64,000 bases of DNA from Anthopleura xanthogrammica (lineage: Eukaryota; Cnidaria; Anthozoa; Actiniaria; Actiniidae): positions 5,869,770 through 5,933,769 of the forward strand of contig OZ025215.1 of assembly GCA_964019055.1 (NCBI GenBank). The letters run 5' to 3'. Position numbers and translations under genes: made by a program. This document shows positions 21,101 through 64,000 of this stretch, in pieces (the stretch's first letter is position 1; each line of letters opens with the position of its first letter). The notes below the pieces were generated by a model. The model was not told the DNA's origin. It saw only the letters and a list, made by a program, of their open reading frames with translations, and made no database searches.

Positions 21101-24100
21101 CTATCAATAAAAAAAAATATGAGTGAAATCCTATTTTTTCACTTGTGCCGCGAAAAGTCGATTTTGGTCGATTTTTACAGACAGTCGCTCTTAAAAGTAT
21201 TAATACAATTTTTCTTTATTTCACTCAATTGCAATCGAGTGCATTTATGAGGTAAAAACACCAGGATGTATAACATACTCAAGTAAGGGCTATCAATAAA
21301 CAAAATATGAGCGAAATCCATTTTTTCACTTGTGCCAATGTTTGGTCGATTTTTACAGAAAGTCGCTCTTAAGAACCCCAAACGGATATTTTAACTTCTT
21401 CTAATCAAGGTTGTTTAAACTCTTAGAATACTGATCATCACAAAACCACAGGGTTCCCGAACGCATTGTCTGAGACATTACGCCGTAATTGAAACGAATA
21501 CACAGGGTTCTTGAAAACACTCACAATTTGGCAGGCTAGTCTATAACTTAGATATAATCTGGCAATGCCATCCAGAGCATTCAGCAAAACAATTACAATT
21601 ACTGCACATCTCTAATTGTGAGCCGTGAGAACCCTTTACAAAGATTTGGTTTTTGAGTCCCTTTGTCTCATTTGATAGCTTGTGAAAATGTTCCTCTTGG
21701 TATGGCATCAGGAGCTATTCAAGATGGCAGTATAACAGCTTCTTCTTCTCAACAACCAGCCAAGAATGCCAGACTACATTACACATCAGGTTCATCATGG
21801 TGTGCATCTACGAGTGACTATCATCCTTATCTACAGATTGACTTGGGCTCATCTCATCTTATTTGTGCAGTGGCTACGCAAGGAAACATCATGACAGACC
21901 AATGGGTGAAGACGTACCAGATAGACACATCTACTGATGGTACAACATGGACCACTTATCAGGAGAACGATGCTGACAAGGTAATGTAGCATTAGTTATA
22001 GTATGATAGATCAGTGGGTGAAGACGTACCAGATAGATACATCTACTGATGGTACAACATGGACCACTTATCAGGAGAACAATACTGACAGGGTAATGTA
22101 GCATTAGTGATAGTATGATTGATCAGTGGGAGAAGACGTACCAGATAGATACATCTACTGATGGTACAACATGGACCACTTATCAGGAGAACAATATTGA
22201 CAGGGTAATGTAGCATTAGTGATAGTATGATAGATCAGTGGGTGAAGACGCACCAGATAGATTCAACTACTGAACATGATGGTAAACATGGACCACTTAT
22301 CAGGAGAACAATACTGACAGGGTAATGTAGCATTAGTGATAGTATGATAGATCAGTGGGTGAAGACCTACCAGATAGATATCGATACATATATCTACTGG
22401 TGGTACAACATGGATTACTTATCAGGAGAATAATATTGACAGGGCAGGGACGTCGAAGCACATCTTAAAGTGGGGGGGGGGGGGGGGCTAGTACGCAAAT
22501 TAGAGCCGGGGAAAATTGGGAGGTTGGCTATGATTAGAAAATTTAAAAGAGTAGTATGCAAAAGGTAAAATAGTGGGTTAGATCAGTGGGTGAAGACGTA
22601 TCTGATATATATATATATAGATAGATAGATTTTAGAAGTAGACAATAAACTATTTTTGTTGCTGATCCACAGATATTCCACGGTAACTATAATCGTTCAA
22701 CTGTTGTACGTCGCGTTCTGTACCATGGTATTATCACAAGATATCTACGTTTTGTTCCTAAGATATACCGTACAAGTACACCGTGCTTGAGGACAGAGAT
22801 CTATGGATATCCTTTCCAGACAAGTAAGATTACGTTGAACTACTACTATTTATTGTGATGTCATATTCCTGATTATTTTTTCCAGGACGAAACCAATTCA
22901 CCGATGTCAAGTTAAGATGCCGGGACGTTTTCTGCTTTTTATTGTTGGTATTTTCCAGGTTTCCATTTTCTACGTAAGGGTTAGAGAATAAACGCGAGTG
23001 CTTTATGGGATTTAGAGCTCCGAGCATTGATAGAAGCCCGAGTGGCTTTCTATCATTGCGAGGAGCTTTAAATCCCATAAAGCACGAGTGTTTATTCTCT
23101 AACCGATTTAGAAGTCATACTCACGAGATCATTGTTTGTATGCATTTGTTTGCTACGTTATTTTGTTCCCCTCCCAAGAGAAAATTAATCTTTGAATAAA
23201 AGTAATATACGACATATTTTTTTAGCTTTGAAATAACAGAAATACAATGAAATGCTCTGTTCATTAAGAACATTTATCATATGACCGTATTTCACTGTAC
23301 GCGTGATTCTAAAAAAAACCTTTGGGGAAAATGTCGTCAGCAAAAAAAGTACGCTTTTCCGAAAAGTGTAATAATTTCCCGTTCGGACTCGCCGTTCGGA
23401 CTCGCTGCCGTCAATCATGTAAAAACTAAGCATTTTGATTCGCATTTATTAAAAACGCTTTGAAATCGATTTTTTATATGTGGTCATATGATAAAATGCT
23501 TATTGACTGAGTTAAGGTCGGTCCGAAGGGGAAAATATTTGGCTCGAGGTCCTTGGCACGGAACTCGCTGCGCTCGTTCCGTACTTCAGGACCTCGAGCC
23601 AAATATTTTCCCGTTCGGACCTCCCACTCAGTCAATAAGTACATAGTATGTGATAGTCTGTCCCCCGAGACTTAAGAATTTTAATCGAGAATTTACATAG
23701 TCAGTTGTAACTGTAACGTGAAGAGACGTAAGCGGCCAAGGTTTCTGTCGACAAGTTTCAATATAATTTCAAGACAAAATTGTAAGTACAAGTTTTGAAG
23801 AAAAAAACACGCTTTTTGAATTTTATCTCATAAAATGTTAAAAATGTTAAAAATTGTCTCATAAGACATGTCTGACAAAATGTTAATATTATATTTATGT
23901 CGAATTACAGTTTGACTAGATGTCAGATCGAATGTAAAAGGCCATAGTATGTCCATAACAGTAAAAAATACTACTCCAATACCATGTGCATATGCCGGTA
24001 AGGAACCAAAACTTATCTAAATTAGTACTACGTCAAAGAACGCAAATAAGTTGCCGTTTGAAAGCTGAATATTGGCAAGACGTGGTCTAGAATCGATTCA

Positions 24101-27100
24101 AAGAAATCACAGAAATGCTTCCAAAATTTGATATTTCGATTTGCAAAGTTAGTACAAGTGCCAAAGAAATATATATTAAGCTACTACCTTATAATGAAAT
24201 CATGATTCATGAAACTAGTTTCACCGTGGCATTATAACAATCATAAACTGTATGCTTGCAAATTCTACGACTTGGACATATACTCCTTAATTTTTAGATA
24301 GCCTACAGTGAAGTTTGTTGGTAAAAAAGCAAATAATGTTTAGGATTTTTTTACTGACGACAACGTTAATTGAATTTGCTATCATGAGCTATATATTACG
24401 ACATTTCAGAGATGATTTAAAACTCTAAGACTTCAATTTTTTGGTAAGGGGGACATTGAATAATTTTCTGTATATTCAATAGGGTAATTAAACTGAGTTG
24501 TGAAAATGAAAAGAGCCTTGAAGCTCAGGGAAAATACAGGTTTATTCAATTAATATTTTCTAAGTTAGACATTAGTATTCCCTATATAGTGAATACTAAT
24601 AAGACCTTGAAACAAAAAGAAAACAAAAGTGTTGTAATCTTGTTTGTTAGGCTGATGGGCTTCCTGTGGCCCCTGAGAGACATGAGGGAACACCCCTTAG
24701 ATTGTGAACAGCCATCTTGAACAGCCTCGTGTGTTTGTACTTTTATTGAGTTAAAACTTGAAGTTATTTAGAATTAAAACACAACTTAACATGGTGTCAG
24801 AAGTAAACAAGAAGTGTTAGAAGAACTGAACACAAGTAGGTAAAAAAAAAAAAATGGCTGAAAACGACTCGCACCGGAGCCCAGGTCCATTGATTTTAGA
24901 TGCACAGGCGGCGGAAAACTGGAGGAAGTTTATCATGCAGTTCGGGATTTATCTAGTGGCGAAAGGAAAAGATGAAAAATCAGACAAAGTAAGGGTGAAT
25001 TTGTTGCTTAACTGTGCAGGACCGGATCCTATTGAGGAGTATAGTCATTTTGAATTCCACAAGGGAGAAGACAAAGAGGGTTATGAAGATGTATGCAAAA
25101 AATTCAAAGAACTCTGTGAGGGTGCAAAGAATGTCATCTATGAGCGGCTAGTGTTTAATCAGCGCAATCAGAAAGAGGGAGAAAGACTTGATAATTTTGT
25201 GAGCGAACTCAAGAGACTGCCCCTAACATGTGAGTTTGGAGCACTTAGAGATTCATTGATTAGGGATCGCATTGTTGGAGGAGTACTGTCAAACGAACTG
25301 AGAGGAGAACTGCTGAAAAGGCCAGACCTCACTCTTCAGAGTGCTCATGATTATTGCAGAACATACGAAGCAGCAGAACTACAGAAGTTCAAGTTTGGCT
25401 CACCTATTACTGGCACAGGGCAGTCAATGGGTGTTCATTATGTAAACGAAAAAGACAGAGACACTGCTCGCTTGTGTAAGTTTTGTGGATACCAGCACCC
25501 ATTCACCAAACCAAGTCGTTGCCCTGCTTTTAAAAAGAAGTGCAAAAAGTGTCACAAAGAAGGACATTTTGCAAAAGTCTGCCAAGAGTAGGTAAAGCAA
25601 AGACCACACGATGATGCAGAGAAACATGAGAGTGTTTTAACCAAGGAAGAACAGGATGAAAGTCAGGATATACATACGTATTTCAGATCTGTTGAAATTG
25701 GAAAGGTTACCAATACTAAAAATAGCAACAAGAGCTTGATCAATCTGACAATTGCAGGAAAAGAAGTCAGAATCAAAGCAGATACTGGTGCAGAAGCCAC
25801 AGTAATCCCACATCGTTTGTACAAGAGCATTACAAAGGCACCATTACAGAAAATACAGCAGCCCTTAAGAGGTTGGCTTGCAGCCAAGCCTATACATCCA
25901 AGGGGTTGTGTGCGCCTTCCAACCCAGTACAAGAACCGCAAGATGGATTTGTTGTACCTTGTTGTAGATGGAGAGTTTACACCCCTACTCAGTTGTGATG
26001 CTTGCTTAGACGTGGAGGTCCTCAAGTTCATGAATCTTGAACTGATAGATTTACCTCAACCCAAAGCGACGGATTCAGAAAAGAATCAAGATAGAAAGCA
26101 GATAAGTTTTGCGTCAGACCCAGTGCTGTGTGACTGTCTGGACTGTTTCAGTGACAAACCTGGTACCCTTCCAAATGCAGTACATTTAGAGATTGATCCC
26201 TCAGTGCCTCCAGTGATACATCCCCCAAGGAAAATCCCAATTGCACTCCTAGAACCAGCACGAGAAAAGCTTAAGGAAATGGAAGAGGATGGCATTATTG
26301 TAAAGGAGGAGGAACATTCACCCTGGGTGTCATCAATGCTTGTGATTGACAAAAGGAAAGGGAAAGACAGGAGCAATCCACCATCAAAAGACAGTGTAAG
26401 AATTTGCATTGACCCAAGGGATCTGAATAAGGCCCTCAAGAGACCCCATTACCCAATGGTGACTGTAAAACAAGTAGCCAACCGACTATCTGGTGCAGCA
26501 CGTTTCACGACTCTTGATGCCTGCAGTGGATATTGGCAGCTTCCAGTTGATGAGGAGAGCTCAAAACTCCTTACATTCAATACTCCATGGGGAAGATATC
26601 GATTTACAAGACTCCCTTTTGGTATAAGTTCAGCCCCTGAAATTTATCAAAGGGAGATGGACAGACTCTTTAGTGGGGTCCCAGTGGAAATTATAGTGGA
26701 TGACTTCCTGATTCATGGTCTAGACAACAGGGACATTGATGAGAAATTGACACGAGTACTCGAAAGGAGCCGAGAAGTGGGGTTAAAACTCAACCCTAAG
26801 AAAGTGAAACTTCGAGTCCCAGAAGTCAGTTATGTTGGACATGTATTCTCATCCAAAGGCCTGAAACCTGACCCTGAGAAGATAAGAGCCATTGATGAGA
26901 TGCCACACCCCACAGATAAAGCAGGTGTTCTGCGATTCTTAGGAACTATCAATTACCTAGACAAGTTCATTGAGCATAAAGCTGACCTACAAGGACCCAT
27001 CTCTCAACTAACGCAGAAAGAAGCAGCTTTTGTGTGGGAGAAACCACAACAAGAGGCCTAAGACCGTCTGAAATCTGTCATCACAAGTGCACCCGTCTTA

Positions 27101-30100
27101 GCATATTTTGACAATGAGAAGGAAACAGTGTTAAATGTAGATGCAAGTGGCACTGGACTTGGTGCTGTGATCATGCAGGAAGGGAAGCCAATTGCATTTA
27201 GTTCAAAGACTTTATCTCCTTGTGAGAGGAGATATGCCAACATCGAACGAGAGCTCTTAGCAATACTATGGGGAGCACAGAAATTTCACACGTACGTGTA
27301 TGGACGGCGAGTCATTGTGGAAACAGACCACAGGCCATTAGAAGCGATTTTTCTAAAACCACTGAATGAGTCCCCTCCACGACTACAAAGGATGCTATTA
27401 AAACTGACCAAGTATGATCTTCATGTGCGCTATGTCCCTGGAAAGCTACAAGCTATCTCTGATTGCCTGAGTAGAGCCCCCTTAGATGAAACACAACCGA
27501 TCAGTGAACACGAAGATGTTATTGGTGTAAATCTGATTGAGGATCTTGGATTGGAAAACAGCACACTACTGAGATTCAAGGATGTGTCAAACAAGGATGA
27601 AACCACAAGAGTTTTAATGGAATATGTGCTAAAGGGCTGGCCACCAGAGAAAGATCAAGTTGACGAGTTGGCCAAAGAATACTGGAGCTACAAGGAAGAG
27701 CTGAGTGTTGAGGATGGGTTGCTTTTCAAATCTGACCGCATTGTTGTTCCAAGGGCATTAAGAGCTGAAGTGCTGGAAGAAATTCATGGAGCACACATGG
27801 GAGAAACCAAAAGCATCAGTTTCGCCAGAGACTATGTGTTCTGGCCCTCAATGACAGCCCATATCAAGGATAAAGTGAGCTCCTGCGCTATTTGTAATGC
27901 ATTCCGCCACCAACAACAGAGAGAGTCATTACATCCACATGACATCCCGGGATTACCATGGCAAGTAGTTGGAACTGACCTTTTTCAATACGGTGGACAC
28001 TCGTACCTACTAGTCACTGACTTTTATTCAAAGTATTTTGAAATAGAGTTGCTTCGCCAAACTACTGCCACATGTGTCATTAACAACATGAAGAAAATAT
28101 TCGCACGTTTTGGAATACCAACTGAAGTCGTTAGTGACAATGGGTCACAATACAGCAACACTAGAAACTTGTTTAACAGTAGCCATGAGTTCAAAAGGTT
28201 TGCAGAAGAGTGGGGATTCCGCCATACAACCAGCTCACCAGAGTACCCCCAGTCAAACGGAGCTGCAGAACGAGCTGTTCAGACTGCAAAGAGAATCCTA
28301 AAGAAGGCTGCAGCAGATAATAAAGACCCATTTGAAGGACTTCTGAAGTACAGAAACACCCCATTTGAAGATATTGGGGTCTCGCCTACTCAACTCCTGA
28401 TGAGTCGACGAACTCGAACAACACTACCAACTCACAGACGCCTTTTGGTACCACAAGCTGTGGAACCTAACCGGGTCATGAAGGCACTCAAGCAGCGTCA
28501 GGAGGTGTCAAAGACGCACTATGATAAACACAGTCGAGACCTACCGCCTCTACAAGAGGGAGACAAAGTACGGATACGTCCAAACCAAGCGAAGAAATGG
28601 CGTAAAACAGAAGTTCTACCCAGATCCTACATAGTACAGGATGAACAAGGGCGTATTTACAGGAGAAATAGAAGGCAAATCATTGCAGTTCCAAATGATC
28701 AACACATGATACCACAGTTAAGTAGAAACTGTATGAGTCCTCGACTCCAAGACCCTCCAGCCAAAACAGGGGACAAGAAACCACAGTCAGTGCTACCAGC
28801 ACCGCTATCTGAGGCACCCAAAGAGTTGGTGCATCCATCACCCATGACAACACGTTCAGGGCGAGTGATCAAGAAGCCTCAAAGACTCATTGAACAATAT
28901 TAGGAGAAGGGAAATGTTGTAATCTTGTTTGTTAGGCTGATGGGCTTTCTGTGGCCCCTGAGAGACATGAGGGAACACCCCTTAGATTGTGAACAGCCAT
29001 CTTGAACAGCCTCGTGTGTTTGTACTTTTATTGAGTTAAAACTTGAAGTTATTTAGAATTAAAACAACTTAACAAAAAGACCTTATTAGTATTCTCTATA
29101 TAGGGAATACTAATGTCTAGCTTAGAGAATACTAATTAATAACCCCGTATTTTCCCTGTGCTTCAAGGCCCCCACCACTTGACACCCTAGTTTCTCTATG
29201 GGATATAGAGCATTGAAATACTGATTGCTGATTGGTCGAGTGAGTATGACTATATTCTACTGAGAATTATGCGTTCCATTTTCTGGCTCCCAGAACTCTA
29301 CTGCATGATTACCTGATGACCTTTGACTAAGTTATTCATATTTTGCCTAGCCCTGTGCTAAACCGGATTTAAACATATTTCTTTCTCCTGTTCAGGTTGT
29401 TCTAGTCACAGTGTTGGTATACCAAGTACTAGTTTGGTACCTGATCACAGGTTTACGGCAACATCCTTTACTGGTGTTTACTCACCTTCTAAAGGGAGAG
29501 TGGGTGCTAGCACAGCCTGGGCCCCGAGTACAAGCAACACCGCTAATGATTATTATCAGGTTGATCTTGGTGGTATGTTCCACATATGTGTTGTAGCTAC
29601 TCAGGGGAGTGGGGAGAGTAACAAGAATCAGTGGGTGAAAAAGTATGAGTTGTCGTACTCAAAAAACAACGTGCTGTGGACAACATATCACAACAAGTCT
29701 GGAGAAAAGGAGGTAATACATAGAGACCCGCCATTATGTACAAATTTAAATATAATTTCTGCACCAGAATCATCTTCAATTCTCAAGAGATTTTTTTCTC
29801 CAAATTGACTTAGTTGAATTGTTAATTGCTGAAGTAAATGCACCTAACCCTGACTTCCAATTTTATATTAAACCTATAATGTTGTGAAGCACTTCTGTGA
29901 AGAAAAAAATTGATATTTCAATAAACACCTGATTTTTAATTTCAATTTAACGTTTGATAGTTTTGGTCCCACGACCATGTTTTAAAACCTAGGGAACTGG
30001 GTTCTAGTGTGACGCATATCCCGGTATTTCGTGCATGTGTAGAGACGCAAAGTAAGGATACATTTCTTCTTAAACTAGTGGCAAGGAAACACATTTTTTT

Positions 30101-33100
30101 GCACAAAAAGTAAACAATGATATAGCTTTAACTTACGGTTTTTATAGGAACACCTTCCACTTGTTTACCTGTGTTAGACTTACTAATACTTTCGAATACA
30201 CACATATTCTTGTTACTTCTATAGAAAGTAACTTTCCCTGAACATATAATCACAGTCCTTTAAAATAGATGGATTCAGAGCCAAATGAAAAAAAATTATT
30301 TCGGTTGAGAGATTTTGATAGTAGAATACGGTTACAGTGAACTTTTTGATTTTGGACTTCGATGAATAGCAATCGAAACATGCATTGAGTCACTGGCATC
30401 ACAGTCCCTCATACCTTACATTTTTGTGTTTATGATTGACAGTTCAGCGGTAACAAAGACAGGACCACAATCGTTGCCAATGCAATAGACAACCCATCCA
30501 AAGCCAGGTTTGTTCGTGTACGTCCAACAGAATACCAAGAATGGAAGATGCTAAGAGTGGATTTCAAAGGACTCCGTTTAGGTAAGAAATCTCAAAGTAT
30601 TCTGCATTATCGCATGTCATACGATTTCGCAGAAGCTAAGGTATAAAATTTAACTTTTGTCCATTCTGTTCAAGGTTGCATCGCGTCGCTTGGTCTTGAA
30701 AATTCACAAATACCGGACTCAAAGATTACGTCATCTTCTTATTGGCGTACGTATGCTCCATCACTTGGCCGTCTGTATGGCAGCTCATCATGGTGCAGCC
30801 CCACAATAGCCAATACCGAATTCATACAGGTTGACCTTGGGCAGATCAAGACAGTGACAGGTATTGCAACACAAGGTAACACAGCTGTTAATGCATGGGT
30901 GACGTCATACAAAGTGAGCTACAGCTTTGATAACACAACTTGGAACGAGTACAAAGAAGGACAGGTTGTCAAGGTAATATAGCCTGGTCTTAGATATCTC
31001 TTCCTCATTCATGTTGTATCTCGGCATGTTCATTTAGTACATCTAGTACTGGCTACTTTCAATTCTCTACACAATCCATAGAGAACCCGTCTCCGGTGCG
31101 TCAGCATCGTGCATTAGCGATTTTCATTTCTGAGAAGGGTTCCCTGTGTCTTTAGATCAATGACACGTGACAAGATCATAGTAATAGCAATCTGTTACTA
31201 GGGTCGCGGTAAAATGCGGAAACTGAAACGGCGGAAAGCGGAAAGCGGAAATTCGATACATTTCATTATACTCCATTTTCGTACAAGAATCAACATAAAT
31301 TGAAATTCAATACATTTTATAATACTCAAATTTTCGTAAGAGAATCAACATGAATTTTTGAAACTTCAGAAATACTCATGTTTTACGATAAAGAATCGAA
31401 AACATATCTATGAAATTAAACCGGACAAATAATAGGCGCTGTACGCGGGTTTATTCTATATGCCGGCGCTGACTGATGATCATCATTAATGTCAATGTCA
31501 CGCACTCTGTCTAATTTCTACAAAACCCTCCACAAAAACTACGTTCACGCGGAGGGGAGATGCTTTTTTGATCCCGAGAAACCTATAATTTAAGTTTAAC
31601 TTGTTTTTGATCCAATGAACGACTTTCTGTATTCACTTTTCTCTTTAATTCTGTCTTTGCTACTTGGACGTCAAATATCACGTGACAAATTAGCACAAAA
31701 AATTACTTAGCATTTTTCGCTGAAGTTTACCGTGAAGTCATATCGTTTCTCTTCATTGATATGGGTTTTATTTACGACTTTAGCACACTACTACCTTTAT
31801 ATCGGCGATGAATAAGTGCGTTATCCTATTACAGAACGACAAGCGGTATTTTATGTCTCTTTTTACGCGACGAGGAAACCGCAACATAAATATGATCTTT
31901 TTACGTGTCTTTGAGCTAAAGAGGCCGCCTGGTTTCCTGTGCACATTAGATATAGTTTGTTGTTCAAATATTGATAAAAGCTATTCACACATACATTTCT
32001 TATATATGTCCTGTTTCCTTATAGAGTTTAGAAGGCAACACCAATAGCAATGGCGTCAGAGTCAACTGGTTAGGTCATCCAATTGCAGCACGTTATGTTA
32101 GAATAACTCCTCAGACCCACAAAAGTAGAAAGTGTTTGCGGTTTGATTTGTATGGGTGCGATGTCTGTAAGTTATACGGATGCGTTATTAGGATTCTTAC
32201 TTCTTATGGGAATATATTCAATTCTTTTCAGTAATGTTATATTAATTTTGCAATTTCTGTGTCATTTCAGTCGTTGTCCCAAAAGTAATTTTAGATACTG
32301 CTGACCTCATCCTTCCAAGCATCAAAGGAAGTTCCAGTACATTAACATGTAGTGTACTTGGTGAACCAACACCTGACATACAGTGGTTTAACCATGGAAC
32401 AAAGATCAACGGTGCAACACAATCAACACTACAAGTACAGTTTATCTCTGCTGAAGACGTGGTGTCCAAGTACAATTGTACAAGACAAGATCCCAACACA
32501 CGAGCTGTAGTCTGTAACACGTTTTACAAGTGTAAAATAGTAAACCCAAGCCACTTGCCTAGTGAAGGGATTAAAGAGACGACCGCAGTGAAAGTGACGA
32601 TATTCTTGAGTAAGTCAATAAATATAATATTTTAATACTACTACTAAGAATACCGTCAGCATAGCTTCAAACAACATAGTGAGATAATGATTTAATAGTA
32701 AAACCTTTCCCTAATTCGCTTGAATGACCACAGAACAAAAGATTCAAGTCGAGGCTGGAGTTTTCAAATCCATACATTTACTGCATTAATTTTGTCTACT
32801 CCAACCTATCCATTGTGCACGATATATTTTATCTGTGATTTTTAAAAAGTGTGACTACTATAATCGTACCAGGGTCACTTAGACAGCGAAAACCAATCAA
32901 AATGTAGAATAAAAGCCAAGAATTCCAACTTTGACTAGTCGAGCCAATCAGAGACCATCAAAAACCAATAGCATTTCAACATTGAATCCACCCGATGCAA
33001 TAAAACTTATTCAGATTCCCATGAGTAAAAGACGTGCTGTCCACCTTTCTGATTGGCTCAAATAGCCAAAGTTGGAATGCTTTGTTTTCATTCTACATTT

Positions 33101-34222: not shown

Positions 34223-34282
34223 AGAAATACATGACGCGGAATCCTGATACATGTAAAAGGAGTGAAAGCAAGGCAATGGAAG
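33957..34282 (+). CDS. DISC-1 exon 12, Ig domain 2 with a one-base deletion
   Basis: VTLSCYTSGDEPIKYTWRK and DFGTYIC are the Ig cysteines and Trp. Immediately after YIC the exon is one base shorter than in DISC-2 (326 versus 327 nt) and the frame is lost. Confidence 0.85.
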
Positions 34283-36675: not shown

Positions 36676-36713
<38 letters not shown>

Positions 36714-37120: not shown

Positions 37121-37177
<57 letters not shown>

Positions 37178-46620: not shown

Positions 46621-46693
46621 TGTTCTTGACTCAGCCCAGCAAACATGCGATTTTGATATTGACTCTTTCTTTAAATTTCAGGAAAGAGACTAT

Positions 46694-49689: not shown

Positions 49690-51095
49690 CTCGGTCCTAA
49701 CTAGTAAGCACTAGTCATTATTAATTAAATCAACGAAGTAAAACAAACGAGAAAACAACTGATGTCTACGAGTTGTAAAATTACTCTAGCGCATATATTT
49801 ACAACAAGGATATATAACAAGCGGTATTCAAAACAGAGTATGGGATCATTCGTGGATGACAGGACTACTCTTATTCATGTTCTATATCAAGAATCTTAAT
49901 GCCTTTGTTATTATTGAAATTTAAGTTATTGAATAATTAAAATCTTGATCCCTTTTATACAATAGTCACCGTGTAAACCAGAAAAGATTATTTACATAAT
50001 TTCATGCTAAGGTAAAGCGATCGTGCAATTTTTTGTGGTCTTTTTTAAAACTTGGCCCAAATATTTATTTTGAGTGCTAGAGAAGAAATATGAAATAAAA
50101 GACATACTTTTTCAAAGATGGGGCTAGCTTGCGGCCATCTTTTTCGGGGAAAAAAAATATGATAATGAAATAACAAGCTCTTTCATTGACCTGCAGTCCA
50201 TATCGGTCGATAATCATAAAAGTAATAATTTTAAGTGATATCAAGAGAACATAAATAAGAGAGGGAAACTTCTTAATACCGCACGCGCCTCTCTTATTTA
50301 TGCTCTCTTGGTGATGAATCAGAAACCTAACTCATTTTATTGTGTTGAAGAATAAGTTTGCATTTCAAAAACAGTACACCGTGACTGTCCTTTACGCTCC
50401 CTCCTATTTTTTGAAATTCCTTAAAATTTAGCAAAAACACGTACCTTCAGGGGGTAGGTCTTCCTGGACTTCAGGGTATGTCACCAAATTAGATTTTTAA
50501 ATAAACGCCATTTAACACCGAAACGGTCTGCCGCCATATGGAAAAATTCTTACCACCAGGGCCGGTTGTACAAAGCCTGAAGAAAGTTATCCGCTGGATA
50601 ACGATTTATCCGGTGTATAGCGATATTCCGGCTTAGTACAACCGACTCCTGTAGAATAAATTACAATAAAAATGATAAAAATTGCGTGCACATTCAGAAA
50701 TGATGCGCGCAATGCTTGCGCTCTTTACTTTAACAAATGGGCTATTTAGTTTGATTGAAAGCATCCACATTATTAAACAACAGTGTTTTGTTAAAATATA
50801 CTCCATTTACCGTACAGTGGAGCATCTATTAAGCGGAAACCTTCGAAACTTCGCTTATTGTCCGCTAAATAAGGGGTGTCCGCTGAATAGAGATACCGCT
50901 GTATTTTTTATGCTCTATCTATGAGTCCACAACCTCATCTTGTTAAACTGACATTGACAACTGAATGGGAATGGACAAGAACCTTAAAAAAAGAGTTTCT
51001 ACAGGTTTCTAGATATAGTCCCTTTCCTGAAATTTAAAGAAAGAGTTATCAATATCGCATGGTTGCTGGGCTGAGTCAAGAACAAAGAACTCCGC
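49690..51095. repeat. Inner right arm of the large inverted duplication
   Basis: Inverted partner of 46610-48025, lacking the 216-bp MITE. No gene seen. Confidence 0.88.
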
Positions 51096-51273
51096 CATCA
51101 CCCCCAAAGCAATTCCCACAAGCCATTACCAGTCTTCCCTTGCAAACCGGAATTCAGTTATTTAAAAAATGAATCATTAATTTAAGTTAGCCTTTCTGTA
51201 TTTGGCAAAGAACTTGACTAATTTTTTGCAATCTTTTAGACAGTACCAACTTGAAGAGCTTGAAGTCTTGAAG

Positions 51274-53115: not shown

Positions 53116-53399
53116 ATTGGTCTGTGGCGCTGAACTTTTCAAAATAAGACTTTGATATTTAATGGAGTGTATATCTTAGTGTATATTATCAAAGTGGAAT
53201 GAAAGTTTCTACCTGCACCTATACCTGTACCTAGCTCTACCTTTTGAAAAAGATCTTATAAATCCTCAAGAGAGGTCAAAAAACAAAATGTACATTTTCT
53301 ATCTTTGCTACATTCTATGAGAGGGCTAATGCCCCACAAATTTTATTAGGGACTAGAACCAGCTCCAGCTCTCTTTTTGTTGTTCAATTACTTACTAGA

Positions 53400-54920
53400 A
53401 TTGAGTTCAATTCTCCGACAATAAAACTGACTAAAGTCTGCCATTTTGTGCAATACTGTCCTTATGCTGCCCTACAGTTTTTTTAGCTGATGATGTGTCC
53501 CCCAACCCTGGACGAACTCAAGTTGTTCTTAACCAGCCCGACTTAAAAATTGCCCACCTGAATGTCCGCAGCCTTCCAAAACATTGGGATGAGTTTCGGA
53601 TTTTTATGAACGACAATCCATTCGATGCATGTGATGTGCTTAACCGAAATAAGACTTAACTTTAAATGAAGTTGCTCAGAACTACACATTGATGGATATA
53701 ATCTTATCAGGACTGATCGTGAGGACTCGCAAATAGGAAGTGGAACATAATTACCAAAAAAATGGGGCCCCCGTGCCCCCTCGCTACGCTACTGACTGTC
53801 TGTAACAAAAAGTTTATTTGAATCAGTTCAGCGGTTTAAAACAGGGAAACCAGATGATTGTAAGCCCTACTCGAGACGCTTTTACAGAGGTCTGAAAATG
53901 ACCAAGATTTTAAAGCTTGATTTGAAAAAGTGGAACGTGTCATTCATTGATACAATGAATGGTGACCCATCCAGTTGATTTTTCATGGCTTGATTGCGCC
54001 TTCACCTTGTCCGTACGACGACGACGACGACGTCCGGGCGTGTACCACTACAGGGTTCTCGCTCGCTTTGCTTACTCGCAAATGCACAGAAAACATCGCA
54101 ATAATGTAGTCAAAGATGGATCAAGAAGTATTTTTTCTTTTTTTTTTTAAAGCGAAAAGTACGTTTAATCGAAGTCATTTAATCGAACAATTTTTCGACC
54201 TTAGCGACCTGCTAAAGAAGATTTAACGAAAATAGATTTAAGCTTGAGCTTACGATGAATTTTCGTGAGTGAAACCTCAGTGAGAGAAAAAGTTTACGGT
54301 GGCCCATAACTGTCACAGCGAAAAGAAATAGCTCACAGTGAAAGAGAATAACTCACGACAAAAAGGAATATTTCACGGCTAAAAGAATAGCTCACGGCAC
54401 AGGTAGCCCAAGCTATGAATGAGAATGCTTAGAAGCCGAGCTGAATTATGCCAAGTATCTAAAAAATACTAGAATACTTAATCAAATTGGATTCGGTTAA
54501 AGGTGTTGACACTCAAGCACCTTACAGAAACGCACGCAGTTAAGGCACTAAATGACATCAAAGCAAGTGGCAAAGAAAAGATGACTCGGCAGATAGCGTC
54601 AGCATGAATGAAACTATTTATGTTGTTGCTACTGTTTTTATTTTATCAATCTTAACAAAATGTTCCAAATTAACTTTTTGACAAGAAATTAATTGGCACT
54701 ATAGCTGGAGACGAGCCAAACTAGTTGTCACAATTATAGTCACAACCTGGCTTATTGCCTGTCTTCATTGACGTCATAGGTGCCATGTTGGTTGAGTTTA
54801 ATAAATGATTTTTCACTGAAATAGTTTGTTATGTCGACCAACTTCGAGTATATGGCGGCTCTGACTTAAATAAAGAACAGGCAAAAGGAATGTTAGAAAC
54901 TCAGTTCTCTGCTTTTATAT
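53400..54920. repeat. Right inverted arm, segment matching 44730-46260
   Basis: Includes the LINE endonuclease fragment, the CGA trinucleotide run at 54017-54032 and a series of GCTCACGG-type short repeats at 54310-54410. Confidence 0.85.
53490..53745 (+). mobile_element. LINE endonuclease fragment, right-arm copy
   Basis: Encodes SPNPGRTQVVLNQPDLKIAH, LNVRSLPKHWDEF and, after frame changes, IDGYNLIRTDREDSQIGSGT. This is the start of a LINE apurinic-like endonuclease domain. Several codons are lost around 53640, so it is inactive. Confidence 0.7.
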
Positions 54921-55129
54921 AAAATTTCTCTTCTTTAACTCCAATAATAAGGTATATGATAAGGAAATACATATATAGCACCAGCCGTTTACGAGTGAAG
55001 TTTTCTTCAGTTACAACATGACGAGTTCAAAACTTTTGAGGAAAAAAAACTGGTTTCAAAGTTTCAGACTGAATATTTCCGTGCTTTTCATACAATTTAT
55101 TGCGTAGTTTCAAATGGTGGTTTCAAAAA

Positions 55130-55345
55130 GTGTAACCCGTCCTAGCGGGTTGACGATCAACCAGTTGTAGTGGGTTGGTTTATTTTATTCTAGCGGGTTA
55201 ATCAACCCGTTATAACCGGTTGGTAGCCAAGTATAATACTTAGGCATTTTTTGAGTTTTCAACCCGTCTTAGCGGGTTAACGATCAACCAGTTCTAGCGA
55301 GTTGGGTTGTAGTGGGTTAATCAACTCGCTGTAACCGGTTACATT
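55130..55345. repeat. Expanded AACCCG/CGGGTT cluster near FREP-C
   Basis: Alternating TAGCGGGTTAATCAACCCG and GATCAACCAGTTGTAGTGGG motifs, more copies than at 14810-15010 or 42765-42915. Confidence 0.7.
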
Positions 55346-55799
55346 TTTTGCCATTTTTGTTGTGAAATTAATTGTATTGTTCGAATTCATTTGCATTAGA
55401 TTAGGCACATGTGAAATCCAACGTTAAAACTGGACCTAATTTCTATTAGTATCGATCGGGAAACGATGTTTAACTTGAAAAGGTCGCAAATATAATACAA
55501 CAATTTATTATTGGCGCCTGAAACACGGATACGATTATGGGAAAAACTGATTATAAGCTGAGGTTTTTTTACCTGTGCTTATGCAACAGAATTCTACTAG
55601 GAATAAGAATTATATAAATAAGTTTATTTTGAAAAGGAATGATGCAGTTTGGAATGGAAAAAGAATCAATAATGAAATTAGAAATGCTCATTTAAAAAAA
55701 AAAAAATTTAAAATATTTATGTTTTCTCGCATTAAGAATTTACCATCACGTATCGTTATATTCATAGCCTAAAGGCAACTTGCTTACTTGCGTATCAGT

Positions 55800-57055
55800 G
55801 GACACCAGTATATGGAGATGTCCTACACAACCTTATTTTGAAAAGGAATGATCCAGTTTGGAATGGCAAAAGAATCAATAATGAAATTAGAAATGCTCAT
55901 TAAGAAAAAATCATGAGAAATATTTATATTTAAGAATTTACCATCACGTATCTTTATATTCATAGCCTAAAGGCAACTTGCTTACTTGCGTATCAGTGGA
56001 CAGCAGTATATGGAGATGTCCTGCACAACCTTGTACTATAGTCTGGTATTTCTCGTCATCGTTCTTTTAACTATGGAAAACCATCGCATAGTTGTACTCG
56101 GTATCTAGTGTAGCCAAACCAACGCCATTTACGGCAAACGACTTCGGAGTCACGTGATCCGTGAAAGCTTTGAAATTGAAGTGTTTGAATGTGTGATGCG
56201 TTGCAAAGATTCTTTTTACTGTCAGAGTATGAATTACCGAACGATTGACCAACTATGCCAACTTAACAGTGCAAGTAAAACTTCGCATATTCAAGACTTC
56301 GAGCCAGAACCTGGCTTTATCTACATGAAGAATCCCTATGCAGTAAGTTTAATTTTAATAAAGACCGCATTTTAGCGGGAGAGGAGGTATTTTCCCATAT
56401 CAGGCATGCCATTCTCTTTATCATGATTTCTTTTTTCGTCGAAGATAAATTATTTAAGTGACTTACATATAAGCTACAAACAACTCGAGTTTAACTGAAT
56501 GCTTCCCTTCATAAAAGATTAATCTACAGAGAGAAATACCGCGGAACCATTTTGAATTACTGTTTTTCTATCGCTAGTGGTTGATATTAGCTTTGGCAAG
56601 GGAAAAAACTCGATTTTTCCAGAGTTTTTGTAATTTTGCCTTGCACATTTTCTACAAATTCTTACTCAAAAGTAAGGAGTCTCTCCGCTCCACCTTTAAG
56701 CATGTTCCTTCGTCGCCGAAGTTATTAGAAAAGTTTGATTTTCAAAGTTCTCTAACATCCACTAGTATAACTAACTGCCCCTCAACATTCCTTTTTTCTA
56801 GAGAATGATCAAATCTTGTTTTGACCTGAAAGTATTCTACCCTTCAAAACCAAGTGGATAATACTATTTTTGCCACTTTTAAGGCCATGTACATATTTTT
56901 CAGAACTTTTTCTTTGTTTATCGCGGAATTGGCAAATAAGGTTGAATATGCCCATAAGATATGGCGCATTTTTATACCATCTTGAGAAACATTAACGTTT
57001 TCCCTTTAAGCGCAATTCATTAAACCAACATCTTGTACTTCTAAAGGAAATAACA
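55800..57055 (+). pseudogene. FREP-C: truncated inverted FREP copy
   Basis: Exon 1 (56010-56342) keeps the signal peptide start and PAN cysteines, but CAG has become TAG at 56106-56108. Exon 2 (from 56802) has TAT changed to TAA at 56859-56861 and is cut short at about 56866, where the sequence jumps into the intron next to exon 3. The copy stops at 57055, just before where exon 3 would begin, and DISC-2 3' sequence follows directly. It cannot encode a fibrinogen-like protein. Confidence 0.9.
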
Positions 57056-57599
57056 TATCCATATTGTTTCTGCTTAAATAGCTGGTTCCAAATACACAAA
57101 AACCTGTAACCTTAAAAATTCTCTTGATTTAGATATGAACTGTGTAAAATATCTAGTTTTTATTTATATTCCAATTGGAAGCAACATTACAATGTACTAC
57201 TAAATCCTATGACTTTTACACAGATGTCATTTTTTGCACTTCATTTCTAAGATTGATTTAGAACGGTTTTAAACAGGTCATTCTTTAGTCTTATGCTCTT
57301 TGGTTTACGAACATATGGATTGTTCAAACCAGGTAAACAGTCTTATTGGCAGACCCTGAGGCGAGGGTCCGGGGCTAACACGTCAGTCCTATATACTCAA
57401 TGATTCTGTATTCTTGTATCTACAGCCCCCTTCGCGCGACCTAATGTTACTGTTAATGTTAATCAGTTATCTGACCTCCCTATTAAGGAGGTAAGATAAC
57501 TGAAAGAAAGCTTTTGCCGGCCTTTGAATTTCACAATTTTGTACTTGGTGCTTGGATCTGGAATCCTCGCTGGTTTAATCTTTTACATCAAATTATGGA

Positions 57600-57726
57600 T
57601 CCGAATCATCAAACTGAGAGTCACGGGTTTGCCTTGGTTTTAAATCCATGTAACTTGGAGTTTCTATTTCGTCAGCTTTTTCAGTTTCTGGTTTTCTTGA
57701 ATTTTTAATGACTTCAACTGGATGGC
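57600..57726 (-). pseudogene. Decayed remainder of the DISC-2 cytoplasmic tail
   Basis: Out of the current frame, the DNA still matches the DISC-1 tail up to the YMDLKPRQ-like segment. It then jumps, at a GTGAC/TCTCAG junction, to sequence downstream of the DISC-1 stop codon. Confidence 0.75.
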
Positions 57727-60700
57727 TGAGTTGTCCATGACGCCATTCGTGATTCCTCTTTCATCTGACTCGCTTTTTATTTTTTCCATAATACTCTCAA
57801 TGTGTTGTTTTTCTTTTCGTAGCCGGTATACCAAGTAAGCGATGCAGATAATCAGAACAAGGATGATCAATGCAAGTGGAATGACGTATGGCACAACTGT
57901 TAAGAAATCAAAACATCACATGACTATTGCATCAGATGATAAACAACCGTGATGAAATTAACACATCTTATACAATGAGTTATTTCATTTGTTTGGTGTA
58001 TTGTTCAATTATTTTGGTATTAGATTGTGAAAAGGACGGTTGCCGAAAAGAGCATTTACAGAATTTACATGTACTAACAAACTTACAAATAAGGTATATT
58101 TTAAAGACTTTGTCCTGACGGCTGGTTATCTTTCTAACTCCATATCAAATGAAACCTATCCGCAGTCCCTGGGGGCTGTAGTGTAGCTAGAAAACGTGAA
58201 AAGATATTGTAACAGCTATATGTGTATAAGGTGTTACCTTCCATTGCCTTGCTTTCACTCCTTTTACATATATCAGGATTCTGCGTCATGTATTTCTTCA
58301 ATTGCACTCTGTTGATTATGTAAACAATTGTTTCTTCACTGTTTGAAGCATTACAGATGTAGGTACCAAAGTCCCTGTCACTTTGAAGTCTAACAACCAA
58401 GTTGTCACCTCTTGCCTTCGCTACGGAGCTATTGAGTAAGAGAGATCCCGATTTTCTCCAAGTGTATTTTATTGGCTCATCTCCACTTGTATAACAGCTA
58501 AGAGTGACATCGTTGCCTTCTAAAGCCCAGATAGTCGAATTGGAATATTTTGTTGGAACGACGGCTGAAATAATATGTTAAGTTAAAACATTGAGTCAAT
58601 TTTTATGTCTCGCTATCACACTTAGTGTTTCGTTAAATATATAAACAAAAGCGAGACTATCTATACTAATAGAAATCATATGTGGCTAGAGCACATCGAT
58701 AAACATCGATCGGTCTACTATTGACCGAATGCCAATATGACCGCCACTTCATTATCATAATTTTTTAAATTCTTATTTTAATCGACCACTACATTGAAAT
58801 AATAGATTAGAATCAAATCAACAAAGTTAGAAAGTTTGAGACAAAAATATCAAATTCCTGAGAAGTTTAAAAATCTTAAAAACGAGAAAAACACCACAAC
58901 TAGGCTAACAAGGAAACAGATCACTGCACACATACAAATCTCTGTAATTTTGATTCCAAATAGCTTCACCTGAAGTAATATTTCTTTGTCCTACTCTACT
59001 GACTCTAGACTTGGACATATTAATGAGCAATTAAAGGTAAGTGTTCTAGAAACCATCAACGAATTGTTAAACTTAAGTTGTGAGCACAACTTATGACACC
59101 GGTGGTCAATCTTAATTTTCCTATAAATAAGTTTATAAACATCAATGTATAGATTTACCAGCACTCACTGTTGTAACATTCAGCCAACTAGTCCACAGCC
59201 CTTGCCCCACAGTACTCATCGCATTCATTCTAATGCTGTAAGGTGTGGGATATTTTATGGTGTATGTAGAAGCAGGATGCTGCACAGTGTAGGTCTTGAT
59301 TGAAGTCTGATTATGAAGTTGTATGGTGTACGAGGTGATAGTACCAACGTCATCAGAAGCAGTCATTGTTGTCCAGCTTAGTGTTATCGACCTCTTGTTT
59401 GGTTGTGCTGTTACATTTGGGGCTTTCGGAACATCTACATACAAAGGAGATAAAATTAAGGAAACAAAAGACTTATATCTCATTCTGCAAAAAAGATAGT
59501 TTACAGTGCGAACACTATAACCGGGGCCACTTAGACAGCGAGAACCCGAGAACTAATCAAAATGTAGAATGAAAACAATGCATTCCAACTCTGGCTATTT
59601 GAGCCAATCAGAAAAGTGGACAGCACGTCTTTTACTTATGGGAATCTGAATATTTTTTATTGCATCAAGTGGATTCAATGTTGAAATGCTATTGGTTTTT
59701 GATGGTCTCTGATTGGCTCGACTAAACTTTTATTCTACATTTTGATTGGTTTTCGCTGTCTAAGTGACCCTGGTACGATTATAGTAGTCACAGTATATCA
59801 GTATATCGTGCACACTGGATAGGTTGGAGTAGACAAAATTAATGCAGTAAATGTATGGATTTAAAAACTCCAGCCTCGACTTGAATCTTTTGTTCTGTGG
59901 TCATTCAAGCGAATTAGGGAAAGGTCTGACTATTAAATCATTATTTCACTACGTGGTTTGAAGCTATACTGACGGTATTCTTAGTAGTGGTATCAAAATA
60001 TTATATTTATTGACTTACTCAAGAATATCGTCACTTTCACTGCGGTCGTCTCTTTAATCCCTTCACTAGGCAAGTGGCTTGGGTTTACTATTTTACACTT
60101 GTAGAACGTGTTACAGACCACAGCTCGTGTGTTGGGATCTTGTCTTGTACAGTTATACTTGGACACCACGTCTTCAGCAGAGATAAACTGTACTTGTAGT
60201 GTTGATTGTGTTGCACCGTTGATCTTTGTTCCATGGTTAACCCACTGTATGTCAGGTGTTGGTTCACCAAGTACACTACATGTTAATGTACTGGAACTTC
60301 CTTTGATGCTTGGAAGGGTGAGGTCAGCAGTATCTAAAATTACTTTTGGGACAACGACTGAAATGACACAGAAATTGCAAAATTACAATACTGAAAAGAA
60401 TTGAATATATTCCTATAAGAAGTAAGAATCCTAATAACGCATCCGTATAACTTACAGACATCGCACCCATACAGATCAAACCGCAAACACTTTCCACTTT
60501 TGTGGGTCTGAGGAGTTATTCTAACATAACGTGCTGCAATTGGATGACCTAACCAGTTGACTCTGACGCCATTGCTATTGGTGTTGCCTTCTAAACTCTA
60601 TAAGGAAACAGGACATATGTAAGAAATGTGTGTGTGAATAGCTTTTATTAATATTTGAACAGCAAATTATATCTAATGTGCACAGGAAACCAGGCTCTTT

Positions 60701-63576
60701 AGCTCAACGACACGTAAAAAGATCATACTTATGTTGCGGTTTCCTCGTCGCGTAAAAAGAGACAAAAAAAATACCGCTTGTCGTTCTGTAATTCGATAAC
60801 GCACTCATTTAGTAACAGTTAGTAACATATTTCTATTACTATGATCTTGTCACGTGTCATTGATCTAAAGACACAGGGAACCTTTCTCAGAAATGAAAGT
60901 CGCTAATGCACGATGCTGACGCACCGGAGACGGGTTCTCTATGGATTGTGTAGAGAATTGAAAGTAGCCAGTACTAGATGTACTAAATGAACATGCCGAG
61001 GTCCAACATGAATGAGGAAGAGATATCTATGACCAGACTATATTACCTTGACAACCTGTCCTTCTTCGTACTCGTTCCAAGTTGTGTTATCAAAGCTGTA
61101 GCTAACTTTGTATGACGTCACCCATGCATTAACAGCTGTGCTACCTTGTGTTGCAATACCTGTCACTGTCTTGATCTGCCCAAGGTCAACCTGTATGAAT
61201 TCGGTATTGGCTATTGTGGAGCTGCACCATGACGAGCTGCCATACAGACGGCCAAGTGGTGGAGGATACGCACGCAAATGAGAATATGCCGTAATCTTTG
61301 AGTCCGGTATTTGTGAATTTTCAAGACCAAGCGACGCGATGCAACCTTGAACAAAATGGACAAAAGTTTTTATACCTTAGCTTCTGCGAAATCGTATGAC
61401 ATTCGATAATGCAGAATACTTTTAGATTTGTTACCTAAAGGGATTCCTTTGAAATCCACCCTTAGCATCTTCCATTCTTGGTATTCTGTTGGACGTACAC
61501 GAACAAACCTGGCTTTGGATGGGTTATCTATTGCATTGGCAACGATTGTGGTCCTGTCATTGTTACCGCTGAACTGTTAATCATAAACACAAAAATGTGA
61601 GGTATGAGTGACTGTGATGCCAGTGACTCAATGCAAGTTTCGATTGCTATTCGTCGAAGTCCAAAATCAAAAAGTTCACTGTAACCGTATTCTACTATCA
61701 AAATCTCTCAACCGAAATAAATTTTTTTCATTTGGCTCTGAATCCATCTATTTTAAGGGACTGTGGTTATTTATACAGGGAAAGTTACTCTCTATAGAAG
61801 TAACAAGAATATGCAAGAGTTAAGCTTGGAATACAATGTATTCGAAAGTATTATTAAGTCTAACACCTTGAATTTCTTTAAAAAAAAAGCAAAGAAAATG
61901 ACGGAAAAGAGTATGGACTATCGAACATTTGCTGGACATGAGATGAAAAGGCAGCCAAAGCCTTGACGAGTAAGCAATTAGGTTATATTTGAAGCCAAGA
62001 GGTTTAAAAAGTTAGCGAAGAACAATACACTCCCCCGTGCATGGAAGTATGCAAATACATTAACTGTGGTCATACCTTTGCACTCCGCGCTGTATAATAT
62101 TAAATAGGCTGCATGAACGTGAGGCTAAAAACTTCATTCATAAATATTAAGAAAGGCCTATAAAATCCTTAAGTGCACCTAACCCCTGTTTAACTTCCAA
62201 TTTTATATGAAACCCTCCTATGATGCTGTAAAGCACTTCTGCGAAGAAAAAGATCCTGAATTTCTGTGCGTCTTCAAAGTTGTGAAAATGGACCATAAAA
62301 CTACCTGTGTTTTTCCATCGCCGAGCAAATAAGGAGAATGAGTCTAGTCAGCTGTGACGTAAACACAGGTAAACAAGTCGAAGGTATTCCTATAAAAACT
62401 GTAAGTTAAAGCTTTATTATTATTTATTTTTTGTGCAGAAAAATGTGTTTCCTTGCCACTTGTTTAAGAAGAAATGTATCCTTACTTTGCGTCTCTACAC
62501 ATGCACGAAATATCTGGATATGCGTCCGTCTAGAACCCAGTTCCCTAGGTTTTAAAACATGCTCGTGGGACCAAAACTATCAAACTTTAACTTGAAATTA
62601 AAAATCAGGTATTTATTGAAATATCAATTCTTTTCTTCGCAGAAGTGCTTCACAATATTATAGGTTTAATATAGAATTGGAAGTCAGATAGGGGTTAGGT
62701 GCATTTACTTCAGCAATTCACAATTCGACCGCTAAGTCAATTTGGAGAAAAAATCTCTTGAGAATTGAAGATGATTCTGGTGCAGAAATTATATTTTAAT
62801 TTGTACATAATGGCGGGTTTCTATGTATTACCTCCTTTTCTCCAGACTTGTTGTGATATGTTGTCCACAGCACGTTGTTTTTTGAGTACGACAACTCATA
62901 CTTTTTCACCCACTGATTCTTGTTACTCTCCCCACTCCCTTGAGTAGCTACAACACATATGTGGAACATACCACCAAGATCAACCTGATGATAATCATTA
63001 GCGGTGTTGCTTGTACTCGGGGCCCAGGCTGTGCTAGCACCCAGTCTCCCTTTAGAAGGTGAGTAAACACCAGTAAAGGATGTTGCCGTAAACCTGTGAT
63101 CAGGTACCAAACTAGTACTTGGTATACCAACACTGTGACTAGAACAACCTGAACAGGAGAAAGAAATATGTTTAAATCCGGTTTAGCACAGGGCTTAATA
63201 TGAATAACTTAGTCAAAGGTCATCAGGTAATCATGCAGTACAGTTCTGGGAGCCAGAAAATGGAACGCATAATTCTCAGTAGAAAATGGAAACCTGGAAA
63301 ATACCAACAATAAAAAGCAGAAAACGTCCCGGCATCTTAACTTGACATCGGTGAATTGGTTTCGTCCTGGAAAAAATAATCATGAATATGACATCACAAT
63401 GAATAGTAGTTCAACGTAATCTTACTTGTCTGGAAAGGATATCCATAGATCTCTGTCCTCAAGCACGGTGTACTTGTACGGTATATCTTAGGAACAAAAC
63501 GTAGATATCTTGTGATAATACCACGGTACAGAACGCGACGTACAACAGTTGAACGATTATAGTTACCGTGGAATAT
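57664..63576 (-). CDS. DISC-2: inverted copy of the receptor, 5' end outside the window, tail truncated
   Basis: Minus-strand exons: 63576-63426, 63148-62832, 61573-61435, 61345-61047, 60597-60456, 60357-60019, 59434-59159, 58564-58238 and 57896-57664. They give 740 residues in one frame, from the second half of discoidin domain 2 to a stop after the membrane segment. The second Ig domain (exon 58564-58238) is intact, with YICNASNSEE, unlike in DISC-1. After the membrane helix (VIPLALIILVLIICIAYLVY) a one-base loss near 57727 shifts the frame and the protein ends 24 codons later without any tyrosine motif. A further ~0.19 kb that encodes YQSI to YEDV in DISC-1 is deleted at about 57620. The likely product is a membrane receptor with a short non-signalling tail. 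The first exons lie beyond position 64000. Confidence 0.85.
58238..58564 (-). CDS. DISC-2 Ig domain 2 exon, intact
   Basis: 327 nt, phase 1 to 1. It provides the reference for the one-base deletion in DISC-1 exon 12. Confidence 0.85.
59159..59434 (-). CDS. DISC-2 FN3 exon
   Basis: 276 nt, nearly identical to DISC-1 exon 11; the end differs (VTTVSAG versus VTTLIDG). Confidence 0.87.
60019..60357 (-). CDS. DISC-2 Ig domain 1 exon
   Basis: 339 nt with the same cysteine pattern as DISC-1 exon 10. Confidence 0.85.
60456..61345 (-). CDS. DISC-2 discoidin domain 4 exons
   Basis: Exons 61345-61047 and 60597-60456, lengths identical to DISC-1. The residues after ITA differ between copies (YSHLRAYPPPLGRL versus SSYWRTYAPSLGRL), showing divergence near the ligand-binding loops. 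Confidence 0.87.
61435..63148 (-). CDS. DISC-2 discoidin domain 3 exons
   Basis: Exons 63148-62832 and 61573-61435. The intron contains ~0.3 kb (about 61800-62150) not found in DISC-1. Confidence 0.85.
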
Positions 63577-63639
63577 CTGTGGATCAGCAACCAAAATAGT
63601 TAATTGTCTACTTCTAAAATCTATCTATATATATATATA

Positions 63640-64000
63640 TATCACATACGTCTTCACCCACTGATCTAACCCACTTTTTTTACCTTTTGCATACTACTCT
63701 TTTAAATTTTCTAATCTTAGCCCACCTCCCAATTTTCCCCTCTAATTTGCATACTACCCCCCCCCCCCCATTCCACCACTTTAATATGTACTTCGACGTC
63801 CCTGCCCTGTCAATATTATTCTCCTGATAAGTAATCCATGTTGTTCCACCAGTAGATGTATCTATCTGGTACGTCTTCACCCACTGATCAATCATACTAG
63901 CACTAATGCTACATTACCCTGTCAGTATTGTTCTCCTGATAAGTGGTCCATGTTGTACCATCAGTAGATGTATCTATCTGGTGCGTCTTCACCCACTGAT
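63640..64000 (-). repeat. Tandem repeat of the discoidin exon end, DISC-2 copy
   Basis: At least two units with CACCCACTGATC at 63656, 63877 and 63990, the inverted form of the array at 21890-22450. The window ends inside it. Confidence 0.88.

Follow-up and report, generated by a model that had tools for sequence, protein, structure and literature searches.

The sea anemone Anthopleura xanthogrammica carries two oppositely oriented copies of a multidomain receptor gene, each within one arm of an imperfect inverted duplication, in one contig. That contig measures 13.4 Mb and belongs to a genome assembly of 290 Mb and 125 contigs. The analysed stretch, hereafter referred to as the window, spans 64,000 nucleotides (C10:5869770-5933769), and positions given without a contig name are counted from its first nucleotide. 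The window was aligned against itself by self-blastn and compared with 140 kb of flanking sequence. Exon borders and phases were set by eye and script, and exons were scanned with Pfam at an E-value threshold of 0.001.

Gene content and domain architecture

Each arm contains a receptor gene of 13 exons encoding a signal peptide, four F5/8C (discoidin) domains (D1 to D4), an Ig domain, an FN3 domain, a second Ig domain (Ig2), a transmembrane (TM) segment and a cytoplasmic tail (Table 1). Every F5/8C domain is encoded by two exons and the TM segment and tail by one, and the domain units start and end in phase 1. After splicing, the right copy yields an open frame of 1024 amino acids, in which Pfam reports four F5/8C stretches and two Ig domains; the FN3 domain scores 22.3 in this whole protein, below the cut-off of 25, but 30.9 when its left exon is scanned by itself. 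With the TM segment read by eye, this architecture places both genes in the anthozoan discoidin (F5/8C)-Ig-FN3 receptor family, and their transcription in opposite orientation within one cluster is that of paired receptors.

A preliminary description of this DNA had named a cluster of receptor and lectin-like genes with preserved exon lengths. The receptor designation holds, given the four F5/8C, two Ig and FN3 domains, the TM segment and the tail. The lectin-like designation finds only partial support: the neighbours are PAN-domain genes, and in the exons scanned Pfam reported PAN and EGF domains and no fibrinogen or C-type lectin domain. Exon lengths are equal between the arms in 9 of 13 receptor exons and differ in D1a (311/320), D1b (139/142), Ig2 (326/327) and the TM/tail exon.

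Table 1 Coordinates of the mirrored arms, receptor genes and neighbouring features; positions above 64,000 lie in the right flank
Feature	Position	Strand	Basis
Left arm (core 18092-48047)	16925..48047	+	Colinear minus-strand blastn blocks
Spacer at axis	48048..49650	none	Self-blastn and genome comparison
Right arm, window part; continues outside to ~71.9 kb (L009)	49651..64000	-	blastn blocks
Arm block pair	46916-48047 / 49651-51001	inverted	Self-blastn
Arm block pair	44730-46270 / 53408-54900	inverted	Self-blastn
Arm block pair	41449-43145 / 54909-56867	inverted	Self-blastn
Arm block pair	31811-35670 / 57057-60809	inverted	Self-blastn
Arm block pair	29252-31200 / 60820-63287	inverted	Self-blastn
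Arm block pair reaching right window edge	22234-22973 / 63279-64000	inverted	blastn with flanks
Arm block pair into flank	21366-22000 / 64122-64756	inverted	blastn with flanks
Arm block pair into flank	18918-20317 / 64748-66151	inverted	blastn with flanks
Arm block pair into flank	18092-18747 / 67616-68273	inverted	blastn with flanks
Left receptor gene, 13 exons, 17.0 kb	18103..35098	+	Exon models; Pfam on single exons
Left F5/8C domain 1, most arm-divergent coding part of the receptor (exons 19076-19386, 19821-19959)	19076..19959	+	
Left Ig2 exon, frameshifted, one base shorter than right	33957..34282	+	Exon comparison
Left TM/tail exon with YMEL, YQSI, YMDL-x7-YKTL (like an immunoreceptor tyrosine-based activation motif, ITAM) and YEDV	34629..35098	+	Exon model, motif scan
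Right receptor gene, window part; first exons 64142-68262 beyond window	57664..64000	-	Exon models; Pfam
Right TM/tail exon, short tail without Tyr motif	57664..57896	-	Exon model, self-blastn
Left-only 6.28 kb insertion in D2-D3 intron	22974..29258	+	Self-blastn; empty site in right arm
Long terminal repeats (LTRs) of element inside left insertion	24627-24791 and 28912-29074		
3' part of PAN segment, in left arm and not in right (5.3 kb)	35671..40970	-	Self-blastn
PAN-domain first exon, left arm	41959..42348	-	Pfam PAN_1 run on 13.8 kb homologue
PAN-domain exon, right arm, internal stop	56073..56342	+	Exon comparison
Third, direct copy of PAN segment (gene on minus strand)	9565..16270	+	Matches parts of left-arm 35947-45055
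PAN+EGF gene, right arm only	51274..53100	+	Pfam; relatives upstream of window

Extent and origin of the inverted duplication

The two arms are reverse complements of each other, arranged in mirrored order around a spacer, and together form an imperfect palindrome that runs from ~16.9 kb to ~71.9 kb, past the right edge of the window. The left arm measures ~31 kb, the right arm ~22 kb and the spacer 1.6 kb. Beyond the core arms (18092-48047 and 49651-68273), weaker blocks of 75-87% identity extend outward on both sides. E-values are 0.0 for the long blocks, whose identities are mostly 92-97%, with the exception of 42284-43145 at 82%, and the arms mismatch at 5.6% of 12,594 ungapped positions in 15 block pairs. 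An apparent extension through 20.3-21.4 / 72.1-73.1 kb was rejected as an out-of-order pair formed by a dispersed repeat. The mirrored block order had been described before from the window, as a structure of more than 40 kb; self-blastn recovers the minus-strand blocks at nearly the coordinates then proposed, and the flanks make the structure larger. Two details required revision. The innermost pair, given a left start of 46610, begins at 46916, and no partner for 46270-46916 was found in the self-blastn of the window. The spacer, described as unique and 1.7 kb long, does occupy the axis, but its first ~0.5 kb matches dispersed repeats. Features absent from that description are the divergence of domain 1, the frameshift in Ig2, the truncated tail and a third, direct copy of the PAN segment.

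One-sided segments of 0.2-6.3 kb interrupt the correspondence between the arms. The left-only insertion lengthens the D2-D3 intron to 6,572 bases, compared with 276 in the right receptor, and holds an LTR element with reverse transcriptase, RNase H and integrase domains. Its two LTRs differ at 4 of 165 alignment columns, 2 of these being gap columns; so few differences, together with the empty site in the right arm, fit insertion after the duplication. One-sided insertions of this kind, along with deletions, agree with the earlier view of a real, somewhat old duplication marked by discrete insertions.

A structure of this shape could also be an assembly artefact in which two haplotypes of one locus were joined head to head, as heterozygosity is possible in sea anemones. 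Two haplotypes mirrored in this way should remain allelic further out, whereas the flanks compared beyond the arms differ in sequence and share no more than short scattered matches. The arms themselves differ by 5.6% and by several one-sided segments, and synonymous divergence in the first discoidin domain is three times that of the other coding sequence (see below). Furthermore, two arm pieces, 44730-46270 and 46916-48047, have near-full-length matches at the two arms alone among the candidates scored (the best 40 of 879 and the best 40 of 789, respectively), the remaining genome matches being short dispersed repeats inside them. A misjoin is thus very improbable, and the inverted duplication is very probably real and fairly old. 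The structure is ordinary in kind, with uneven divergence between the receptor twins.

Other repeats were also noted. A 112-base tandem unit corresponds to the 3' end of the second discoidin exon and its splice donor; it is present in 4.8 copies on the left (21891-22444) and 2.0 copies in the scanned right part (L009 3-231, equivalent to window 64003-64231), with further units at 63.8-64.1 kb. Long open frames resembling LTR retroelement polyproteins were seen by eye at approximately -46.4 to -39.8 kb from the window (L018-L020, L019 flank).

Receptor family, signalling tails and coding constraint

Delimited here by its tail alone, the receptor family gave 18 matches in the genome, 14 on C10 and four weaker ones on C9 and C13. 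Five tail copies share one strand at 11.90-12.02 Mb of C10, and further ones are located at 7.05 and 9.01 Mb; of the copies seen, the present pair alone is mirrored at close range. In the paralogue P25 (C10:11948001-11966000) all 13 exons were read, none with a stop. Protein relatives, among the best 120 of 204, are mostly uncharacterised anthozoan proteins. Among the matches listed, the top-scoring one comes from the coral Stylophora (39% identity over 59% of the query), and the highest identities over a large part come from Actinia tenebrosa, in LOC116294321 (partial; 69% over 42%) and LOC116286842 (56% over 61%). Both Actinia proteins belong to the same F5/8C-Ig-FN3 family and differ in having more FN3-like stretches (by eye); LOC116286842 has an ITAM-like pattern in its tail, its TM segment being read by eye.

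Cytoplasmic tails were searched for the ITAM pattern YxxL/I-x6-8-YxxL/I. The left tail contains this pattern, which turned up in 0.45% of 20,000 shuffled versions of that tail, and by motif the left copy is an ITAM-bearing receptor. The pattern also occurs in three of five paralogue tails (P25, i.e. L025, together with L026 and L027), and was not found in the tails of L024 or L028. In the right tail, the motif scan found neither an ITAM nor an immunoreceptor tyrosine-based inhibitory motif (ITIM). The right TM/tail exon has one base fewer than the left, which shifts the frame and produces the short tail, and the downstream counterpart of left 34913-35107 (195 bases, 187 of them coding in the left copy) is missing from the right arm. 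As a separate observation, the L028 tail (C10:12017465-12017912) carries a different frameshift of its own and terminates in the alternative frame also used by the right copy, and the L024 tail (C10:11996655-11997113) is broken by a stop codon.

Inside aligned blocks, small frameshifting indels number 2 in 3,016 aligned coding bases, compared with 30 in 5,436 non-coding bases; with 16.6 expected, they are 8 times rarer in coding sequence than expected (p 0.0003). The ratio of nonsynonymous to synonymous divergence (dN/dS) outside domain 1 is 0.43. Taken together, the rarity of frameshifts and this ratio indicate that constraint acted on the copies during much of the period after the duplication. 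The domain-4 dN/dS of 1.07 rests on 11 amino-acid changes, and we make no claim from it.

An alternative account accepts the duplication as real but regards both receptors as pseudogenes by now, their differences as drift and nothing at the locus as used. The frameshifts in the left Ig2 exon and the right tail, the 195-base loss and the broken tails of two of the five paralogues elsewhere are all in keeping with it, as is the PAN-domain gene that lies tail-to-tail with the receptor, since its right-arm copy contains a stop and has lost the 3' part in a 5.3 kb deletion. The scarcity of frameshifting indels and the dN/dS outside domain 1 speak against such decay, and the left lesion sits in a phase 1-1 exon whose skipping keeps the reading frame. 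We therefore consider wholesale loss of function unlikely, though deserving of serious weight.

Divergence of the outermost discoidin domain

The arms differ at 14% of DNA positions in domain 1 versus 3.4% in the other coding sequence, and at 34 of 149 amino acids (tested as 150) versus 46 of 805 elsewhere (p 1e-9). The twins are otherwise 96-97% alike in coding sequence, and the distance between their heads nearly equals that of either head to a paralogue 6 Mb away. Differences within the domain concentrate in three loops, which account for 17 of 35 columns compared with 21 of 118 outside them, gap columns counted (p 0.0006). To position these loops, conserved residues on either side were used together with an alignment to the C domains of coagulation factor VIII, whose corresponding loops bind ligand. 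The outermost domain is probably ligand-binding.

When the arms are compared with each other, domain 1 has a synonymous divergence (dS) of 0.18, as against 0.15 for the TM/tail exon, 0.03-0.10 for six other units and 0.06 for the other coding sequence overall. From each arm to P25, dS is 0.22-0.24 in domain 1, 0.23-0.64 in the other extracellular units and 0.13-0.17 in the TM/tail exon. The two domain-1 exons offered 18 informative quartet sites, 8 of which conflicted with the arms as sisters, versus 1 of 78 in five other exons. Raised divergence between the arms, at 6-19% per 100 bases, spans 19.1-20.1 kb and includes the domain-1 intron, which aligns unreliably with P25; the tract is thus not strictly exon-limited, and we do not claim an exchange confined exactly to the domain-1 exons.

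On these comparisons, the pattern suggests that domain 1 has been exchanged with paralogues, a reading we prefer to repeated change at the same sites. Selection on the loops alone, without any such exchange, would explain why domain-1 changes concentrate there, and by eye the changes in domain 4 also cluster near the first loop of that domain; the dS of the arms to the paralogue P27 likewise suits it, being 0.27-0.28 in domain 1 and much like the 0.22-0.29 of domain 2, which lends no support to recent exchange with P27 itself. Selection on amino acids should not, however, raise synonymous divergence as well, and the conflicting quartet sites also oppose it. We judge loop selection as the sole cause to be rather unlikely.

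PAN-domain neighbours and exchange between copies

The PAN segment exists in three copies, one in each arm and one direct copy to the left of the duplication. The absence of the counterpart of 35671-40970 from the right arm is read as a deletion there because the third copy (9.5-16 kb) keeps related sequence. Along their length the three copies switch partners. Between 41,300 and 42,300, 43 sites group the two arms, 25 group the left arm with the direct copy and 12 show other patterns, with a starting run that favours the direct copy; between 42,300 and 42,700 the signal is mixed (20, 17 and 8 sites in the same order); and beyond 42,700 the left arm sides with the direct copy at 82 sites versus 7 and 6. 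This switch fits exchange between direct copies after the inverted duplication.

Gene conversion between the arms, which the preliminary description had raised as a possible consequence of the structure, has not made them uniform. Homogenisation from arm to arm was not seen, the longest identical run being 248 bases at an overall mismatch of 5.6%, and the exchange-like signals point elsewhere, to the direct third copy in the PAN segment and to paralogues in discoidin domain 1. The same two figures led us to reject a conversion-maintained palindrome of the primate Y type.

The right-only segment at 51.0-53.4 kb carries a PAN+EGF gene, whose protein has its best match in Actinia tenebrosa (72%). 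Five further PAN+EGF genes lie at approximately -35.2 to -1.6 kb from the window (L017-L020) in the orientations +,-,-,+,-, with 76-86% protein identity to pieces of the 51.3-53.1 kb gene. A 34-base minisatellite in the PAN segment is present in 26 copies at 11792-12678 (direct copy) and 19 copies at 40151-40786 (left arm). In the right flank, GPCR-like single open frames, recognised by eye, form a direct pair within a 94% identical repeat at ~118.6-119.9 and ~129.6-130.8 kb (L014, L015).

Proposed history of the receptor pair

We consider it rather likely that the locus reflects a germline inverted duplication after which the receptors were kept mostly in frame, with a head that diverged faster, a shared stalk, a left copy that could signal and a right copy that would act as a decoy. 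One event would have mirrored a block consisting of an ITAM-type discoidin/Ig receptor and its tail-to-tail PAN gene around the 1.6 kb spacer; the structure itself is observed, and fold-back replication or breakage is a presumed mechanism, for which the junctions carry no deciding signature. The arms would afterwards have diverged by ~5.6%, gaining arm-specific insertions and deletions, while the receptor frames were mostly retained under purifying selection. The outer discoidin domain may have changed faster, probably through short exchanges with family members combined with selection on its loops. Both genes would then give rise to cell-surface receptors with the same stalk and different binding heads, the left copy signalling through its tyrosine motifs, perhaps as a form without Ig2, and the tail-less right copy serving as a non-signalling or decoy receptor. 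The two receptors seem to be drifting apart in function. A bolder version, in which domain 1 is a swappable cassette among paralogues millions of bases apart and the ITAM-like-tailed and tail-less twins are a signalling receptor and its decoy, is speculative and in our estimate improbable.

Several points weigh against this history. The evidence comes from one genome assembly and from sequence alone, and, given the lesions in both receptors, the pair may be no more than decaying duplicates. Outside the frameshift count fall the 195-base tail loss, the last 90 bases of D2a and large non-coding indels, and the dN/dS values and amino-acid counts use Ig2 and the tail only up to their frameshifts. 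Regarding domain 1, the loops were delimited once the differences were already known, and its dN/dS of 0.84, not exceeding 1, is no demonstration of positive selection. Its high arm-to-arm dS is approached by that of the TM/tail exon, and its dS to P25 is not below that of Ig1, the lowest of the other extracellular units (0.23-0.27). Finally, the comparison involves four sequences, as one of three stretches fetched for more paralogues yielded domain 1.

Comparison with known systems and significance

The nearest parallel met in the literature is the CEACAM receptors of Xenopus and mammals, in which conversion keeps the binding exon alike between inhibitory and activating partners (PMC5112662). 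Shared features are duplicated Ig-family receptor genes of opposite orientation, tails with tyrosine motifs and, probably, exchange at the ligand-binding exon; the anemone pair differs in that its outer domain has diverged most and its second copy is motif-less rather than opposite. For these reasons, with the right copy lacking an opposite motif and the head least conserved, a classic activating/inhibitory paired receptor was rejected. Primate Y palindromes, such as P8 with arms of 38.0 and 37.4 kb and a 3.4 kb spacer, likewise have gene-bearing inverted arms of tens of kb and a short spacer, but conversion holds their arms highly alike (PMC6790999), whereas the anemone arms are 5.6% apart with large indels. 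Long inverted repeats of Caenorhabditis elegans also contain homologous gene pairs, convergent or divergent, but are described as nearly perfect (PMC1803023), unlike the imperfect anemone structure. Within cnidarians, the Hydractinia Alr allorecognition family, with 41 members reported, is similarly a clustered family of Ig-type proteins (PMC11999971), although nothing at the anemone locus shows allorecognition. In a sea anemone gene cluster of an unrelated family, an inverted gene shows a distinct expression pattern (PMC10210398). Our literature search found no description of this receptor family or locus, which is not proof that none has been published.

Innate immunity is generally held to be the mainstay of cnidarian defence, and to our knowledge few diversifying receptors of these animals are understood. 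If the twins are only decaying duplicates, they would represent the ordinary birth and death of genes. As mirrored receptors whose stalk is conserved, whose head changes fast and of which one has lost its tail, they offer a defined place in which to test how a receptor repertoire may be generated, and they also allow one to ask whether the inverted arrangement favours exchange.

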